From IMG/VR virus record IMGVR_UViG_3300012985_000029, positions 1 to 23,797 of that record: a stretch of 23,797 nt of DNA, one strand, 5' to 3'. Positions 1 to 14,577 of this stretch are shown one piece after another. The notes under the pieces were generated by a model, which saw only the letters and a list, made by a program, of their open reading frames with translations, did not search any database and was not told the origin of the DNA. Made by a program: the position numbers and the translations under genes. Each line of letters starts with the position of its first letter. The first letter of the stretch is position 1. Origin of the DNA: a virus.

Positions 1-62
1 TGCTCGGTGCTCTCCTCGGTGGCGAGGGCGGTGACAGTGGCGTCGGTGGTGGGGTTGGACAT
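1..62 (-). CDS. Partial CDS, N-terminus of unknown protein
   Basis: Only the first 20 codons are inside the window, reading MSNPTTDATVTALATEESTE. The ATG is preceded by AAGGAGT with 6 nt spacing, so the start is well supported. The visible part is Thr/Ala/Glu-rich and hydrophilic, with no membrane segment or signal peptide. It lies downstream of the small membrane-protein cluster and behind copy 1 of the repeated 24-nt element. No function can be assigned. Confidence 0.7.
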   Translation of the reverse strand, partial: MSNPTTDATVTALATEESTE

Positions 63-97
63 GGTGGTACTCCTTAGTTGAATGAGGGTATTACCTG

Positions 98-121
98 CAT
101 TATGGGGCGTGTTTTTCCTAC
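98..121 (-). promoter_or_regulatory. 24-nt repeated intergenic element, copy 1 (promoter-like)
   Basis: Minus-strand copy: GTAGGAAAAACA followed directly by CGCCCCATAATG. It has an A-tract and a CATAAT hexamer resembling a -10 box, about 30 nt before the ribosome site of the next gene. It overlaps the TAG stop of the upstream 125-aa gene. No convincing -35 hexamer is present. Four related copies lie at 1951, 2238, 2457 and 2892. A promoter role is inferred; an operator or processing site is also possible. Confidence 0.5.
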
Positions 122-495
122 CCACCCGTCTGCAGGTTGATGCCCTGCTCGATGCCGCTGAACCGCTTGCGGTCCTCTTCGTCGAACCCAACGTTCGGAA
201 GGCAGTCGTCGTAGTGCGTACGAACCACGCCGACCAGGAAGTGCAGGTCCTCGATGTAGCTGTCGATCGCGGTGGACTGGTGTCCGATGGTCTCCATGAA
301 GGAGAGGTACTGCTGCTCGTAGGCCTCGGACTCCTCGTCACGGCCTTCCTCGAGCGCGCGGTACTCCGCGGAGAGACGGTCGAACCGCTCCTGCCACCAG
401 CGACCGCCTTCGGCGTTCTTGAGGGCGAGGCCGGTCATGCTCGCGAGGAGCAGGATGAGCAGGACGATGATGACGAGCAAGATGACAGTAAGCAT
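118..495 (-). CDS. Small membrane-anchored protein, 125 aa
   Basis: Residues 1-24 are almost entirely Leu/Ile/Val (MLTVILLVIIVLLILLLAS), a single N-terminal membrane anchor or uncleaved signal. The remaining 100 residues are charged and helical, with a likely coiled coil around residues 35-65 (ERFDRLSAEYRALEEGRDEE). The start is supported by AAGAGGAA a few nt before ATG. It follows a 140-nt intergenic region holding a 12-bp stem-loop and ends inside copy 1 of the repeated element. The topology resembles Rz/spanin-like or regulatory lysis proteins, but no family motif is visible, so that is only a possibility given the nearby holin candidate. Confidence 0.8.
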   Translation of the reverse strand: MLTVILLVIIVLLILLLASMTGLALKNAEGGRWWQERFDRLSAEYRALEEGRDEESEAYEQQYLSFMETIGHQSTAIDSYIEDLHFLVGVVRTHYDDCLPNVGFDEEDRKRFSGIEQGINLQTGG

Positions 496-518
496 GATTC
501 CTCTTCTTGTGGTTGGGA

Positions 519-559
519 CCAGAGAGGGGGCGAGCGGGGGATCTCAACCCCCTCCCTGG
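519..559 (-). terminator. 12-bp stem-loop in the 496-635 intergenic region
   Basis: On the minus strand, arms CCAGGGAGGGGG (559-548) and CCCCCTCTCTGG (530-519) pair over 12 bp with one G-U wobble and a 17-nt loop. No U-run follows. It sits 23 nt upstream of the 125-aa gene start, after the DUF6353 gene. The rest of this 140-nt gap holds a smaller inverted repeat at 591-610 (GAGCCCTGC/GCAGGACTC). Terminator or mRNA-stability function is inferred. Confidence 0.5.
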
Positions 560-635
560 CGAATATGGGTACTACACGTGCACGAAGCATGAGTCCTGCA
601 AGCAGGGCTCACACCACATCACTACGAGGCCGTCG

Positions 636-1454
636 TCACTTGACGGGGCGGTCGTAGCCCTTCTCGGCGTCGGTCTGAAAAGTGAACCTCCGAGCCGGAC
701 GGCCGTCGTCGCGACGGACCTCGTCCCACTTGAGCTCCACGAACGCACCAGACCAGCCCCAGTCGTCGCCGTCCGGGGTGGACTCGAAGCCGGCGTTGCT
801 GTAGAAGGTGTTGAGGTCGCAGTCGCCGTGCTTGGCGATCCAGCGGTTGATGTTGTTGACGGCCTCGTCGATGCGCCGCTCGTTGGACCAGATGTCGCGG
901 CCCGTTCGAGCGTCACGGACGAGGTACATCTCCTCAACCTCGTGGTTGGTGTTCTGGACGTTGATCTTGCCGTCCTTGTCCGGGTCCAAGGCGTCGTCAG
1001 CGATCTTCTGCTGGGTCGCCTCGTCCGTGTTGGACTCGATGGCCTCGACGAGCTCGTTGGTGTACTGCTTGGACTGCTCCTTGACCTCCTCGATCGCCAT
1101 GAGAGCGGCGGCCGCGATGGCCTTCTTCTCCTTGACGTGCACGAGGTGGAGACCGACCGTGGAGCCGAGCGAGGCTCCCGTGAGACCGGCGGCAGGCAGG
1201 TAGTTCGTCCACGTCAGCTGGATCTTCTCCTTGACGTCGAGTGGCGTTGCCTTGCCATCCGGGCTGACCAGGTCGAGGTCCGAGTACTCGGCTCGCATGA
1301 CCTCCTGGCCGGACTTGTAGCCACCGCGAGCGGCAGCCACCACAGCGGCGACCGTGCTCACGAGGCTGGTGCCGAAGAGGATCTCCGGCTTGTGGGCGGC
1401 GACCGCGGCCTTGCCGAGACTCGCGAATCCCCTGATGTTGGGCAGCTTGATCAT
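636..1454 (-). CDS. DUF6353-like phage membrane protein, 272 aa
   Basis: The N-terminus (MIKLPNIRGFASLGKAAVAAHKPEILFGTSLV) is basic and leads into a hydrophobic segment around residues 28-45 (FGTSLVSTVAAVVAAARGG). A second weakly hydrophobic stretch follows near residues 85-115. The C-terminal part has the pattern typical of DUF6353 phage proteins: AVNNINRWIAKHGDCDLNTFYS followed by DDWGWS (both near residues 210-245). The function of that family is unknown. The ATG overlaps the upstream stop as ATGA and is preceded by GAGGAGAA, so it is translationally coupled to three tiny membrane genes. Family assignment rests on remembered sequence pattern, not a search. Confidence 0.8.
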   Translation of the reverse strand: MIKLPNIRGFASLGKAAVAAHKPEILFGTSLVSTVAAVVAAARGGYKSGQEVMRAEYSDLDLVSPDGKATPLDVKEKIQLTWTNYLPAAGLTGASLGSTVGLHLVHVKEKKAIAAAALMAIEEVKEQSKQYTNELVEAIESNTDEATQQKIADDALDPDKDGKINVQNTNHEVEEMYLVRDARTGRDIWSNERRIDEAVNNINRWIAKHGDCDLNTFYSNAGFESTPDGDDWGWSGAFVELKWDEVRRDDGRPARRFTFQTDAEKGYDRPVK

Positions 1455-1606
1455 GCGTTGTTCTCCTCGGTGGTGTTGTTGGCTTGCTCTTCCTTGTACT
1501 CCTGGAGCGTCCCGAAGAACCCGATCACTGCCATGACTGCGGCGCCGGCAGCCAGGTAGACATCGAGCTTGTTGGTGGGACGAACTCCGAACAGCCTGCG
1601 CCTCAT
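1451..1606 (-). CDS. Tiny single-pass membrane protein, 51 aa
   Basis: It reads MRRRLFGVRPTNKLDVY, then a hydrophobic segment at about residues 17-33 (YLAAGAAVMAVIGFFG), then a hydrophilic Glu/Asn-rich tail ending in NNTTEENNA. The basic N-terminus and acidic C-terminus predict an N-in orientation. The ATG overlaps the stop of the 41-aa gene by 4 nt (ATGA), with GGAG 6 nt upstream. It ends in another ATGA overlap with the DUF6353 gene. The tight overlaps on both sides strongly support it as real. Function unknown. Confidence 0.75.
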   Translation of the reverse strand: MRRRLFGVRPTNKLDVYLAAGAAVMAVIGFFGTLQEYKEEQANNTTEENNA

Positions 1607-1728
1607 CGGCTTCTCCGCATCTCTCGGACGAAGATCCAGATGAGCCAGAGCCCACCCGTGATGCACGTCAAGATGACGTCGAAGATGAAGTTGAGGCAGC
1701 CGTAGCCGCCTCGAGCTCGCTTGCTCAC
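1603..1728 (-). CDS. Tiny hydrophobic membrane protein, 41 aa, GTG start
   Basis: The GTG start is chosen because AAGGAGGACCA lies directly before it and it overlaps the previous stop as GTGA. An upstream in-frame ATG at 1926 would run through the leader and the 50-aa gene. The protein starts with basic residues (SKRARGGYG), then has a strongly hydrophobic stretch at residues 11-34 containing CITGGLWLIWIFV, and ends REMRRSR. Small proteins of this pattern (basic, GYGC, ITGGLWLIWIFVRE) recur in actinophage genomes, to my knowledge without assigned function. Superinfection or lysis roles are guesses. Confidence 0.78.
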   Translation of the reverse strand: MSKRARGGYGCLNFIFDVILTCITGGLWLIWIFVREMRRSR

Positions 1729-1877
1729 TGGTCCTCCTTGTTCTTGTTGCGAACGGTGATGACGAGGTCGATGATCTCGTCGATGACGATGAAGATGATG
1801 ATGAGCCACAGAGTGGCCACGACCAGACCTGCACTGAACAGGATGAGGTCGCTGAAGAATGACAGGATGGTTTCCAC
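1725..1877 (-). CDS. Tiny hydrophobic membrane protein, 50 aa, GTG start
   Basis: Translated directly: it begins ETILSFFSDLILFSAG after the initiating GTG, continues through a long hydrophobic stretch (VVATLWLIIIFIVI, residues 19-32) and a DEIIDLVITV segment, and ends NKNKEDQ. AAAGGAAC lies 4 nt before the GTG. It overlaps the next gene by 4 nt (GTGA). It is the first gene of a four-gene chain (50, 41, 51, 272 aa) joined by 4-nt overlaps, behind a structured leader and copy 2 of the 24-nt element. Function unknown. Confidence 0.72.
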   Translation of the reverse strand: METILSFFSDLILFSAGLVVATLWLIIIFIVIDEIIDLVITVRNKNKEDQ

Positions 1878-1899
1878 GCGTGTTCCTTTCGGGTGAGAG

Positions 1900-1951
1900 A
1901 AAAAATGGTGAGAAGCTGTTTGGCAACAGGCTAGACTACTAGCTTCTTCTC
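1900..1951 (-). promoter_or_regulatory. Structured leader with U-run before the four-gene chain
   Basis: The minus-strand leader can form three helices: GAGAAG (1951-1946) with CTTCTC (1915-1910); CTAG (1942-1939) with CTAG (1934-1931); and CTGTT (1929-1925) with AACAG (1920-1916). After ACCA comes a run of six T (1905-1900), then the ribosome site and GTG at 1877. This looks like a leader terminator or attenuator. If copy 2 of the 24-nt element is a promoter with a normal start spacing, the first arm would lie upstream of the transcript start and form only in read-through RNA. Confidence 0.4.
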
Positions 1952-1974
1952 ATTATGGGACGTGTTTTTTCTGC
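1951..1974 (-). promoter_or_regulatory. 24-nt repeated intergenic element, copy 2
   Basis: Minus strand: GCAGAAAAAACA followed directly by CGTCCCATAATG, the closest match to copy 1. It has an A-tract and a CATAAT hexamer, and lies 74 nt before the GTG at 1877. A stem-loop of the repeated family lies just upstream (1988-2014). Promoter role inferred. Confidence 0.55.
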
Positions 1975-1987
1975 CTATCCACAAGAC

Positions 1988-2014
1988 CCTAAGCCACTGT
2001 TGTAGTGACTTAGG
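1988..2014 (-). terminator. Repeated stem-loop, copy 1
   Basis: Minus-strand arms CCTAAGTCACT and AGTGGCTTAGG pair over 11 positions with one U-G wobble and a 5-nt loop; GGTCTTGTGG follows. It lies 19 nt after the stop of the 61-aa gene. The core CTAAG-CACT is shared with the stem-loops at 2272 and 2520. A terminator function is inferred from position; the trailing U-run is weak, as is common in high-GC actinomycetes. Confidence 0.6.
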
Positions 2015-2032
2015 ACCTTGACGGCGGATGGG

Positions 2033-2218
2033 CTATCGGGTCTTGGACTCGCGTCGCTTCACCTCCCGCTTCCAGGTCTTGGCGTTCTGACGAGCCGTGT
2101 TCGCGTTCAGCAGCTTGCTGGCTCCGGTGAGGAGACCAACGAGCACGCCGGCTGCGAGCAACGGGTTGTCTTCAACCTGCTCCTTGAGCTTGGTGGTGTC
2201 GAACGAAATCTTGGACAT
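2033..2218 (-). CDS. Small membrane-associated protein, 61 aa
   Basis: It begins MSKISFDTTKLKEQVEDN, has a moderately hydrophobic segment at about residues 19-36 (PLLAAGVLVGLLTGASKL), and ends in a very basic tail (TWKREVKRRESKTR). AAAGGAA lies 5 nt before the ATG. It has its own flanking elements: 24-nt copy 3 upstream and a stem-loop downstream, so it may be a monocistronic unit. The amphipathic N-terminus plus one helix plus basic tail would fit a small holin-like or membrane-tether protein. Function is unproven. Confidence 0.72.
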   Translation of the reverse strand: MSKISFDTTKLKEQVEDNPLLAAGVLVGLLTGASKLLNANTARQNAKTWKREVKRRESKTR

Positions 2219-2237
2219 GATGTTCCTTTCGTAGGGT

Positions 2238-2261
2238 CATCATAGGGCGTGTAAATATCAC
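2238..2261 (-). promoter_or_regulatory. 24-nt repeated intergenic element, copy 3 (diverged)
   Basis: Minus strand: GTGATATTTACA followed directly by CGCCCTATGATG. The A-tract is degraded, but ACACGCCC and a TATGAT hexamer are kept. It lies 19 nt before the start of the 61-aa gene and 10 nt after the stem-loop at 2272-2305. Promoter role inferred. Confidence 0.4.
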
Positions 2262-2271
2262 CTAGGAGAAG

Positions 2272-2305
2272 ACCCTAAGCCACTGTGGGGAAAGTGACTT
2301 AGGGT
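2272..2305 (-). terminator. Repeated stem-loop, copy 2
   Basis: Minus-strand arms ACCCTAAGTCACT and AGTGGCTTAGGGT pair over 13 positions with one U-G wobble and an 8-nt loop; CTTCTCC follows. It lies 5 nt beyond the stop of the 37-aa gene. The arms are almost identical to those at 1988-2014, including the wobble position. Confidence 0.65.
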
Positions 2306-2310
2306 GGGGA

Positions 2311-2424
2311 TCAGGCTCGCTTCTTCTTGATGAAGCCTCCGATGAGCAGTCCGAGGACGGTCAGGCACACCGCGTCGACCCAGTTGGGGCGGGGGATGTT
2401 GTGACGGTCGAGGAACTTGAACAT
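2311..2424 (-). CDS. Tiny membrane protein, 37 aa
   Basis: Translated by hand from the minus strand: it starts MFKFLDRHNIPRPNWVDAV, has a hydrophobic segment at about residues 18-32 (DAVCLTVLGLLIGGF), and ends IKKKRA. AAGGAGAA lies 5 nt before the ATG. It is isolated between a 24-nt element and two stem-loops, suggesting its own transcript. Its length of 38 codons falls below common gene-calling cut-offs. The strong ribosome site, codon composition and spacing support it. Function unknown. Confidence 0.7.
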   Translation of the reverse strand: MFKFLDRHNIPRPNWVDAVCLTVLGLLIGGFIKKKRA

Positions 2425-2456
2425 GGTGGTTCTCCTTTGGTGAAGGGGTTTCTGGT

Positions 2457-2480
2457 CATTACAAGCCATGTTTTTTCTAC
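2457..2480 (-). promoter_or_regulatory. 24-nt repeated intergenic element, copy 4
   Basis: Minus strand: GTAGAAAAAACA followed directly by TGGCTTGTAATG. The A-tract is intact and the hexamer is TGTAAT. It lies 32 nt before the 37-aa gene start, downstream of the stem-loop at 2520-2547. An unusually AT-rich spacer (2481-2519) separates them. Promoter role inferred. Confidence 0.5.
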
Positions 2481-2519
2481 TTTGAAATCGAATTTCCCAC
2501 CCGGGATTTTTTGAGAAAA

Positions 2520-2547
2520 CCTAAGACACTGTTTCCAGTGCCATAGG
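2520..2547 (-). terminator. Repeated stem-loop, copy 3, with U-tract
   Basis: Minus-strand arms CCTATGGCACTG and CAGTGTCTTAGG pair over 12 positions with one mismatch and one G-U wobble around a 4-nt loop. GTTTTCTC follows and AAAAAG precedes, so it has the form of an intrinsic terminator. It begins 8 nt after the stop of the 102-aa gene. The core matches the other two stem-loops. Confidence 0.7.
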
Positions 2548-2554
2548 CTTTTTG

Positions 2555-2863
2555 CTAGAAGTTCTCAGACTCCTTGTGCTTCTTCTGCTCCTGACGGGCA
2601 GCGAGAGTCTCCAGGGCCTTCGGTACGAGGACGCCGGCGAACTGCTGGAGCGCGTAGATCCCTCCGACGGCGGTGATGCCTCCCAGAGCGGGGATGACGG
2701 TCTTCTTGAGCTCGGTGGTCCTGTTGAGGATCTTGTCGAGTTCGTTGATTCGCGCCATCACCTTCTGATAGTCATCACTCTCCGGCGGGAGGGTGCTGAT
2801 GTGCTCCAGGAGTCGCGTGCGTTCCGCAACGTAGGGCTTGGGCTTACGCTTGGGTAGTGGCAT
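2555..2863 (-). CDS. Small membrane protein with cytoplasmic coiled coil, 102 aa
   Basis: The N-terminus is basic (MPLPKRKPKPYVAERTR), followed by a helical segment (residues 17-53), a hydrophobic segment at about residues 54-80 (TVIPALGGITAVGGIYALQQF), and a basic/charged tail (AARQEQKKHKESENF). TAAGGAG lies 6 nt before the ATG. It follows the holin candidate with copy 5 of the 24-nt element between them. A second holin or holin regulator is plausible by position, but no family signature is visible. Confidence 0.72.
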   Translation of the reverse strand: MPLPKRKPKPYVAERTRLLEHISTLPPESDDYQKVMARINELDKILNRTTELKKTVIPALGGITAVGGIYALQQFAGVLVPKALETLAARQEQKKHKESENF

Positions 2864-2891
2864 TGAATCTCCTTAGAGGTGAGTGGTTCTG

Positions 2892-2915
2892 CACCTTAAG
2901 GGATGTTTTCCCTAC
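2892..2915 (-). promoter_or_regulatory. 24-nt repeated intergenic element, copy 5 (diverged)
   Basis: Minus strand: GTAGGGAAAACA followed directly by TCCCTTAAGGTG. The GTAG and AAAACA part is conserved; the -10-like part is weakest here (TAAGGT). As in copy 1, the GTAG contains the stop codon of the preceding gene. It lies 28 nt before the 102-aa gene start. No stem-loop precedes it. Confidence 0.35.
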
Positions 2916-3265
2916 CCGCCTGCCATGGGGACGTTCTGGACCTTGAGGAGCAGGTCCTTCTGCGAGCCGACCTCTTCGGCGGTCTTCTTCATGTTGAGGT
3001 CGGTGATCACGTTGTCCTGTCCCGGTGGAGTCTCCTGGACCAGAGCGACGCCGTCATACTTGGCGTCCGAACGGTTCCAGGCGGCCTGGTTGAGGACCAG
3101 CAGGGCACCCAGCGCGACGTTGACCGCCACGATGGTCTTGACGATGGAGTCGGTGTTGTCCCAGCTCCAGATCGCGCCGAGCGACGCAACCAGGGTGGCC
3201 AGAGCCGGAAGACCGACCTGGGCGGCGTACTTGAGTACGTCGTAGAACTTGTTGGGGAGATTCAT
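2912..3265 (-). CDS. Putative holin, 117 aa
   Basis: It begins MNLPNKFYDVLKYAAQVGLP and has two hydrophobic segments, about residues 15-35 (ALATLVASLGAIWSW) and 40-60 (SIVKTIVAVNVALGALLVL), with a charged C-terminal half. This MNxPNKxYDxLK...LPALATL...IW...IV.TI.A....LGALL layout matches r1t-type phage holins, which oligomerise in the inner membrane to trigger lysis. AGGAGG precedes the ATG and overlaps the stop of the Gp37-like gene. The C-terminal extension beyond the usual r1t length (residues 65-117) is hydrophilic and unassigned. Location downstream of the tail genes fits a lysis role. Confidence 0.75.
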   Translation of the reverse strand: MNLPNKFYDVLKYAAQVGLPALATLVASLGAIWSWDNTDSIVKTIVAVNVALGALLVLNQAAWNRSDAKYDGVALVQETPPGQDNVITDLNMKKTAEEVGSQKDLLLKVQNVPMAGG

Positions 3266-3273
3266 GAGGCCTC

Positions 3274-4389
3274 CTAGGGCACGATGGTCTCGAGGGTCGG
3301 ATAGGCCTTCACGCCTGTCGCGTCCTCCGTACGGATGTACTCGGTCACCCGAGCGAACTCGTCCAGTCCGTAATCCCCTACCACGCGCACGATGTCGCCC
3401 AGGGCGTAGTCGATGCCGTACTTGTAGGGGTTGATGTCTGGGTTGATGTTGCCGTCAAATATGGCGGTCTCGCTGGCCTCCGCAAGAGCCTGTGACATGT
3501 AGTTGCCCAGCTGGGGCACGGAGTTGATGTCGGACTGAGAGCCGTCGACTAGAGCCACGCGTCGTTCCAGACCCGTGGGCTCAACCGCTCCTTCGAACAT
3601 AGTGGCGGCAAGTCCTGCACCGACCCCATAGCCAACGTTCGCTGACCCGACCTTGCTGAACAGGTAGGTACCGTCATCCAACAGCTCACGAGAAGCGTCG
3701 AAATATACGGTTCCAGAGCGGTCCGTACCGGCATAGATCTGGACGCCGATAGCAGTCCCGGCACTATTCGGCCGGACCGCCCTGATCCCATGCGGAACCA
3801 CGGCCGGAGTTGCCGGCACTGTTGTGGGATCCGCCTGAGCACTCGTCTGCAGCAATCCAAGAACCACTCCCAGGAGGTTGCCCCTCTCGATGGAGAAGTT
3901 CTTGGATGGGCCCGTGGACGTTCCGTAGTCAGCAGGTGTTGGGAACTGCACCACCGCCGACGGGAATATGTCATTGACCGACAGAAGGCCGGCACGGACG
4001 ATCTGGTCGATGGCGTACCAGGCCACGTCACTGGGAGTCTTTGCGGAGACTACCCAGTCAGACGAGCCAAGAGTTGCAGACACCGACTGTAGCGCGACAC
4101 GCCTGTCCAAGATGGACTCGTAGGCTCGACCCTTGATGGTCAGCTTCTGCGGCGTGTTCTTCTTCCTGTCGATCTGGTGTGTCTCCACAACCATTGCGAT
4201 GTTCGACTCTCGAAGAGTGACCACCGTTCCTTCTGGAAGAAGGTTGAGGAACCCCGTGGGTCCGTCGATCTTGCCGGTGACGATCTGGAAGTCGCCCACC
4301 GTGTTGAACCGTTCCGTCCAGATGAGGCTGTCGTAGTTCTCGATCAGCTTGGCCGGCTGGTTGTTCGCGTCCAGCGTCATGAGATCCAT
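3274..4389 (-). CDS. ReqiPepy6 Gp37-like tail tip protein, 371 aa
   Basis: The N-terminus MDLMTLDANNQPAKLIENYD, followed by SLIWTERFNTVGDFQIVTG and then ITIKGRAYESILDRR-like text (KLTIKGRAYESILDRRVAL near residue 80-98), is the signature of the siphovirus ReqiPepy6 Gp37-like family. That family is comparable to tail-associated hub/baseplate proteins next to Dit. The ATG at 4389 is chosen because AGGAGG lies 8 nt upstream and it overlaps the fibre stop as TGATG; the longer in-frame reading to 4767 would run through the fibre gene. Its position after Dit and the fibre and before the holin fits a tail-tip role. No lytic domain is seen. Confidence 0.82.
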   Translation of the reverse strand: MDLMTLDANNQPAKLIENYDSLIWTERFNTVGDFQIVTGKIDGPTGFLNLLPEGTVVTLRESNIAMVVETHQIDRKKNTPQKLTIKGRAYESILDRRVALQSVSATLGSSDWVVSAKTPSDVAWYAIDQIVRAGLLSVNDIFPSAVVQFPTPADYGTSTGPSKNFSIERGNLLGVVLGLLQTSAQADPTTVPATPAVVPHGIRAVRPNSAGTAIGVQIYAGTDRSGTVYFDASRELLDDGTYLFSKVGSANVGYGVGAGLAATMFEGAVEPTGLERRVALVDGSQSDINSVPQLGNYMSQALAEASETAIFDGNINPDINPYKYGIDYALGDIVRVVGDYGLDEFARVTEYIRTEDATGVKAYPTLETIVP

Positions 4390-14536: not shown

Positions 14537-14577
14537 GCTGTGCCGGGGCTGAGGGTCGAAGTCAACCCCGGCACAGC
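14537..14577 (-). terminator. 12-bp perfect stem-loop after the major tail protein
   Basis: Arms GCTGTGCCGGGG (minus strand, 14577-14566) and CCCCGGCACAGC (14548-14537) pair without mismatch; the 17-nt loop can pair further internally. It starts 5 nt past the major tail protein stop and ends 9 nt before the chaperone ribosome site. No U-run follows. It is either a partial terminator, lowering expression after the abundant tail protein, or a 3' stabilising hairpin. Confidence 0.7.

Follow-up and report, generated by a model that had tools for sequence, protein, structure and literature searches.

Gene organization of the locus

The 23.8-kb window (the whole stretch of DNA analyzed here, 23,797 nucleotides) is a complete IMG/VR contig and represents a fragment of a tailed-phage genome. 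The terminase, portal, protease, tape measure and tail genes are encoded on the minus strand throughout the window. The terminase shows approximately 63% identity to the terminases of Streptomyces and Gordonia phages, and the phage appears to infect actinobacteria. Beyond the tail and holin-like genes, at positions 1–3300, small genes are separated by unusually wide gaps, which contain the stem-loops, promoter-like elements and structured RNA listed here in order along the minus strand:

2891–2909, minus strand: weak copy of the element (score 6.8) before the 102-aa gene
2555–2863, minus strand: 102-aa gene (P0001), whose orthologues anchor the relatives
~2515–2552, minus strand: stem-loop 3, a putative terminator after the 102-aa gene, with a GAAA loop followed by UUUU
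2456–2474, minus strand: element upstream of the 37-aa gene (score 18.6)
2311–2424, minus strand: 37-aa gene (P0003)
2272–2305, minus strand: stem-loop 2, a terminator-like hairpin of 13 pairs with a weak U-tract (UCUUC)
2237–2255, minus strand: element (score 28.9) before the 61-aa gene
2033–2218, minus strand: 61-aa gene (P0002)
1982–2020, minus strand: stem-loop 1, a terminator-like hairpin of 17 pairs with a weak U-tract
1950–1968, minus strand: element (score 23.4) before the three-way-junction RNA and/or the 50-aa gene
1900–1952, minus strand: conserved three-way-junction RNA (1909–1952) and subsequent U-run (1900–1905), beginning directly at the element end
1725–1877, minus strand: 50-aa membrane-protein-like gene (P0004) with a GTG start
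97–115, minus strand: element (score 19.2) before a gene starting at 62 and truncated by the contig end

The window had no match among cultured phages at the DNA level, and the 102-aa protein had none among cultured phages or GTDB genomes. For this reason, the relatives were gathered through protein searches of IMG/VR and, among the cultured phages, through a 273-aa gene of the module. Using the 102-, 61- and 50-aa proteins as queries, eight IMG/VR contigs with the same module were obtained.

Three related stem-loops fold in the coding-strand RNA

A preliminary description of the locus had pointed to three stem-loops with a shared core, and this was borne out by the folding analysis: the core reads CCTAAG-N-CACT, and all three structures fold in the minus-strand (coding) RNA. 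The z-scores of stems 1, 2 and 3 were -5.4, -6.3 and -8.0, respectively, with none of 200 shuffled sequences being equally stable. A scan of all 44-nt minus-strand windows placed the stems in the lowest 0.4–1.1% of local folds, at a GC content (0.42–0.53) below that of the window (0.61). Stem 3 consists of 15 pairs plus one U-U mismatch. A pair near the middle, said to be G-U in minus-strand RNA only, was indeed found in each stem (U-G, U-G and G-U, hence C-A or A-C in plus-strand RNA), and the non-Watson-Crick positions inside the three stems comprise six G-U, no A-C and one U-U on the minus strand.

As in intrinsic terminators, each stem follows a stop codon and folds stably in the transcribed strand. 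The U-tract directly 3' of the hairpin, which is common in the relatives, is good at stem 3 (UUUU) and weak at stems 1 and 2. Elsewhere on the minus strand, two intergenic hairpins of very high stability (14537–14577 and 518–561) are the strongest local folds of that strand and have no clear U-tracts.

The proposed order of stop codon, stem-loop, element, ribosome site and next gene was observed in two of the three gaps. It breaks down at stem 1, where the element is followed first by an extra structured RNA of about 44 nt and a U-run, and only then by the ribosome site of the 50-aa gene.

Conservation of pairing indicates selection on RNA

The hairpin after the 102-aa gene could be aligned in eight sequences, the window included. 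Across these stem 3 orthologues, 93.7% of the cells were paired, and compensatory double changes had occurred at 11 of the 16 pairs. None of 500 shuffles reached this level of pairing, and slid structures performed far worse. Where stem 3 of the window has G·U, four relatives have U·G and one has C-G. Structural conservation in relatives is thus directly visible from alignment and pair counting.

The strand specificity was assessed by counting G·U against A·C on the sense strand of 34 distinct hairpins. For each element the best upstream hairpin was used, with G·U and A·C treated alike in the choice. The ratio was 57:16 (p=1.5e-6), or 51:15 in the relatives alone; the excess may partly reflect U-tracts pairing back to G, which would be an RNA-level effect even so. 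Taken together, the covariation and the sense-strand G·U excess show that strand-specific selection acts on the RNA, in strong support of the earlier suggestion.

These results also bear on whether the inverted repeats could instead function at the DNA level, as operators for a dimeric protein of the phage; such a role has been proposed for the ESAS inverted repeats of cluster K mycobacteriophages (PMC3203893). The CCTAAG-N-CACT half site common to the three copies would suit such a role. However, the stem sequence varies freely in the relatives while the pairing is kept and sense-strand G·U is favoured, whereas the ESAS repeats behave in the opposite manner, with RNA pairing not kept (PMC3203893). 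Because the conserved feature is the pairing rather than the sequence, we rejected the operator reading, which is very improbable. The SAS/ESAS system otherwise resembles this locus in that conserved signals, some of them with inverted repeats, lie in the gaps before many small genes (PMC3203893). With the SAS consensus used here, the sequence showed no excess next to start codons in the window (4 loose matches versus 8 expected). The stems are best read as transcription terminators, a role that we infer from their sequence and structure.

A promoter-like element precedes the small genes

The 24-nt element of the preliminary description was scored with a matrix of 19 positions, trained on the relatives only with the window left out. 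The element proved to be real: four coding-strand intergenic sites scored 18.6–28.9, whereas the best score among 40 simulated windows was 12.9. The score of the copy at 2891–2909 is by itself within chance, and the relatives carry a stronger copy at that place.

The element consensus in cultured phages is TCGCA-N3-WTTACAYGNCCTATAATGAGACCCC, the CGCA box being degenerate in the window group (GGCA, GGTA). A total of 587 element sites displayed a near-invariant TATAAT, matching a sigma70-like -10 box, together with fixed TCGCA (14 bp before TATAAT) and ACA boxes and conservation to about +8. Part of the element statistics obtained after the exact-pattern scan is biased by it. The -35 consensus (TTGACA at 16–18 bp) was absent across the 587 sites, and the window has one 9/12 match. 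In the complete genome of Streptomyces phage Moozy every strong site is on a single strand, as is almost every one in Gordonia phage Secretariat, and most are found in the small-gene module, which separates the tail genes from the replication genes. Lactococcus phage 1706, which infects a host of a different phylum, contains 11 element sites versus 0 in simulation. No published report of the element sequence was found in the open-access literature.

Terminator-like hairpins and elements form a recurrent layout

The layout of terminator, element and gene recurs in the eight IMG/VR relatives and in Gordonia, Streptomyces, Arthrobacter and Rhodococcus phages, and the hairpins of the relatives typically end in UUUU. 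The same wrapping was observed in well over a hundred phage sequences, which with few exceptions also encode an unusual one-piece RNA polymerase. TTTT is found directly 5' of 310 of the 587 elements and AAAA of 31. The element often begins right at the U-tract of the preceding terminator (e.g. L011 5690–5715, Lactococcus phage 1706).

We conclude, with a probability of about 0.78, that the stem-loops terminate single-gene units and that the following element is the promoter of the next unit, giving an array of insulated cassettes. Each cassette would consist of a promoter, a small gene or small structured RNA, and a terminator, so that each gene or RNA would start at its own element and stop at its own hairpin. 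Both activities are inferred from the sequences. Termination followed by new initiation, as previously suggested, is the best reading in view of the recurrent layout, although the U-tracts of stems 1 and 2 are weak. Separate control of the 102-, 37- and 61-aa genes, a further suggestion, was not supported: every unit has the same promoter type, and the genes are therefore insulated but probably co-expressed.

The weak U-tracts of stems 1 and 2 would also be compatible with stems that stabilize 3' ends or serve as RNase processing sites of a long polycistronic transcript, with the element as a processing or translation signal. We consider this unlikely, given the UUUU ends of the relatives' hairpins, the excess of TTTT over AAAA before the elements, the repetition of both parts in each gap and the presence of the element before RNA units that contain no gene.

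Pairing in structured RNAs sets in directly after TATAAT

No gene follows 81 of the 613 distinct elements, and 56 distinct units end in a T-run. For 55 RNA units, we calculated the probability of pairing with the 3' end along the unit, with the first base after TATAAT as position +1. The probability was at most 0.03 upstream of -4, 0.08 at -4, 0.49 at +1 and 0.62 at +6, as compared to 0.01–0.13 for shuffled bodies. The pairing from +1 argues indirectly against a sigma70 start, which would be located 6–8 nt downstream of TATAAT and would remove the 5' arm. These units reveal dozens of unclassified phage small RNAs and define their putative start and end signals.

The three-way-junction RNA of the window is conserved across five contigs, and compensation is seen at three of its pairs, including two in the outer stem. 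Since it is located upstream of the 50-aa gene, which has no second promoter, it may be an attenuator or a separate small RNA. None of the structured RNAs, the three-way-junction RNA included, reached an Rfam gathering score; only tRNAs elsewhere did.

Arthrobacter phage Teacup has three consecutive promoter-to-RNA units (L024 6860-7180), the first of which carries the tRNA T-arm-like sequence GGTTCGAATCC within a stem starting right at TATAAT. Another recurrent promoter-driven RNA type, found in L082, L126, L139, L162 and others, is characterized by the motifs 'GAGACACGAATG..GTAGGTG' and 'TTTTCGTTGGACT'. The 'GAGACACGAATG..GTAGGTG' type had no Rfam match in the loci scanned.

The same cassettes could be transcribed by the host if the element were a sigma-A promoter with a strong -10 box and a phage activator bound to the ACA and CGCA boxes. 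The near-invariant TATAAT is perfectly sigma70-like, and weak -35 boxes are frequent in actinobacterial promoters. However, the 587 sites have fixed TCGCA and ACA boxes and conservation to about +8 in place of a -35 consensus, pairing within the structured RNAs sets in immediately after TATAAT, and the element is kept together with a phage polymerase from actinobacterial to Lactococcus phages. Transcription from a host sigma-A promoter is thus a tenable but doubtful explanation.

A candidate phage polymerase co-occurs with the element

The polymerase gene is located at a genome end in the relatives, which the window fragment stops short of. Both long contigs among the relatives with the 102-aa gene encode the polymerase, as do 18 of 20 long contigs picked by the element alone; in the other two and in six short element-bearing contigs none was found, perhaps because these are fragments. 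The polymerase is present in 250 of 50,697 phage records, and its counts by host genus compare with those of the 273-aa module gene as 95 to 95 in Arthrobacter, 55 to 55 in Gordonia and 54 to 49 in Streptomyces. Conversely, the strict element pattern was found in four of six polymerase-bearing contigs; the module is far from the polymerase gene, and short contigs with only the polymerase are uninformative for this comparison. An exception to the co-occurrence of motif and polymerase is Faecalibacterium phage FP_oengus, in which a polymerase homologue is present and no element copy was found; its promoter may have diverged. The link between polymerase and element is likely, and shared ancestry could account for part of the co-occurrence.

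The proteins Secretariat gp83 and Moozy gp57 are members of PHROG 4291, 'RNA-dependent RNA polymerase'. The SGADFDGD motif is invariant in the family, and helix-turn-helix domains are located at the N- and C-terminal ends of the protein. Sequence comparison with the PDB gave helix-turn-helix matches only, and the first Foldseek match of a mediocre AlphaFold model (pLDDT 70, pTM 0.41) was QDE-1 (E=1e-6), which came from fold comparison alone.

We slightly favour the view that the element is read by this single-chain, two-barrel, QDE-1-like phage polymerase rather than by a host sigma factor, with transcription predicted to start at the G after TATAAT. The odds are about even for the broader proposal of a widespread lineage in which a free QDE-1-like polymerase with helix-turn-helix domains reads a promoter of ~30 bp (TCGCA-N3-WTTACAYGNCCTATAAT/GAGA), starts right after TATAAT and expresses insulated gene and small-RNA cassettes. 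If so, a family of single-chain phage polymerases of the cellular type would have a concrete promoter that can be put to the test.

Relation to known phage systems

The nearest working parallel is Thermus phage P23-45, in which two-barrel polymerases use repeated promoter motifs of their own, located at early genes, together with a terminator motif of 26 nt (PMC10770324). The similarities comprise a two-barrel phage polymerase, repeated motifs at small early genes, dedicated terminators and the co-occurrence of motif and polymerase across relatives. However, the virion polymerase of P23-45 is fused to the tape measure protein and the promoter motif is another one (PMC10770324), whereas the polymerase considered here is a free gene with helix-turn-helix domains, and the putative terminators are ordinary hairpins. 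YonO of Bacillus phage SPbeta is likewise a single-chain phage polymerase and a distant relative of the multisubunit RNA polymerases. It transcribes the late genes as one operon, in a study that did not determine a promoter sequence (PMC5467207), in contrast to the many one-gene units with a clear motif observed here.

Arrays of small membrane-protein genes have been noted in Arthrobacter AM/AU and Rhodococcus Pepy6/Poco6 phages (PMC5513430), and these represent the same gene module as in the window. A term search of that paper returned no mention of promoters, terminators, intergenic signals or RNA polymerase. The cassettes suggest a possible route of expression for these puzzling arrays of tiny genes, which are found in many isolated actinobacteriophages.

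Two polymerase homologues carry other annotations. Orf75 of Lactococcus phage 1706 (L043 2082-5171) is annotated as a structural protein, and the polymerase may for this reason be carried in the virion. The homologue in the saliva Siphovirus contig89 (L040 20513-23173) is annotated as a 'tail fiber protein', which is probably a misannotation.
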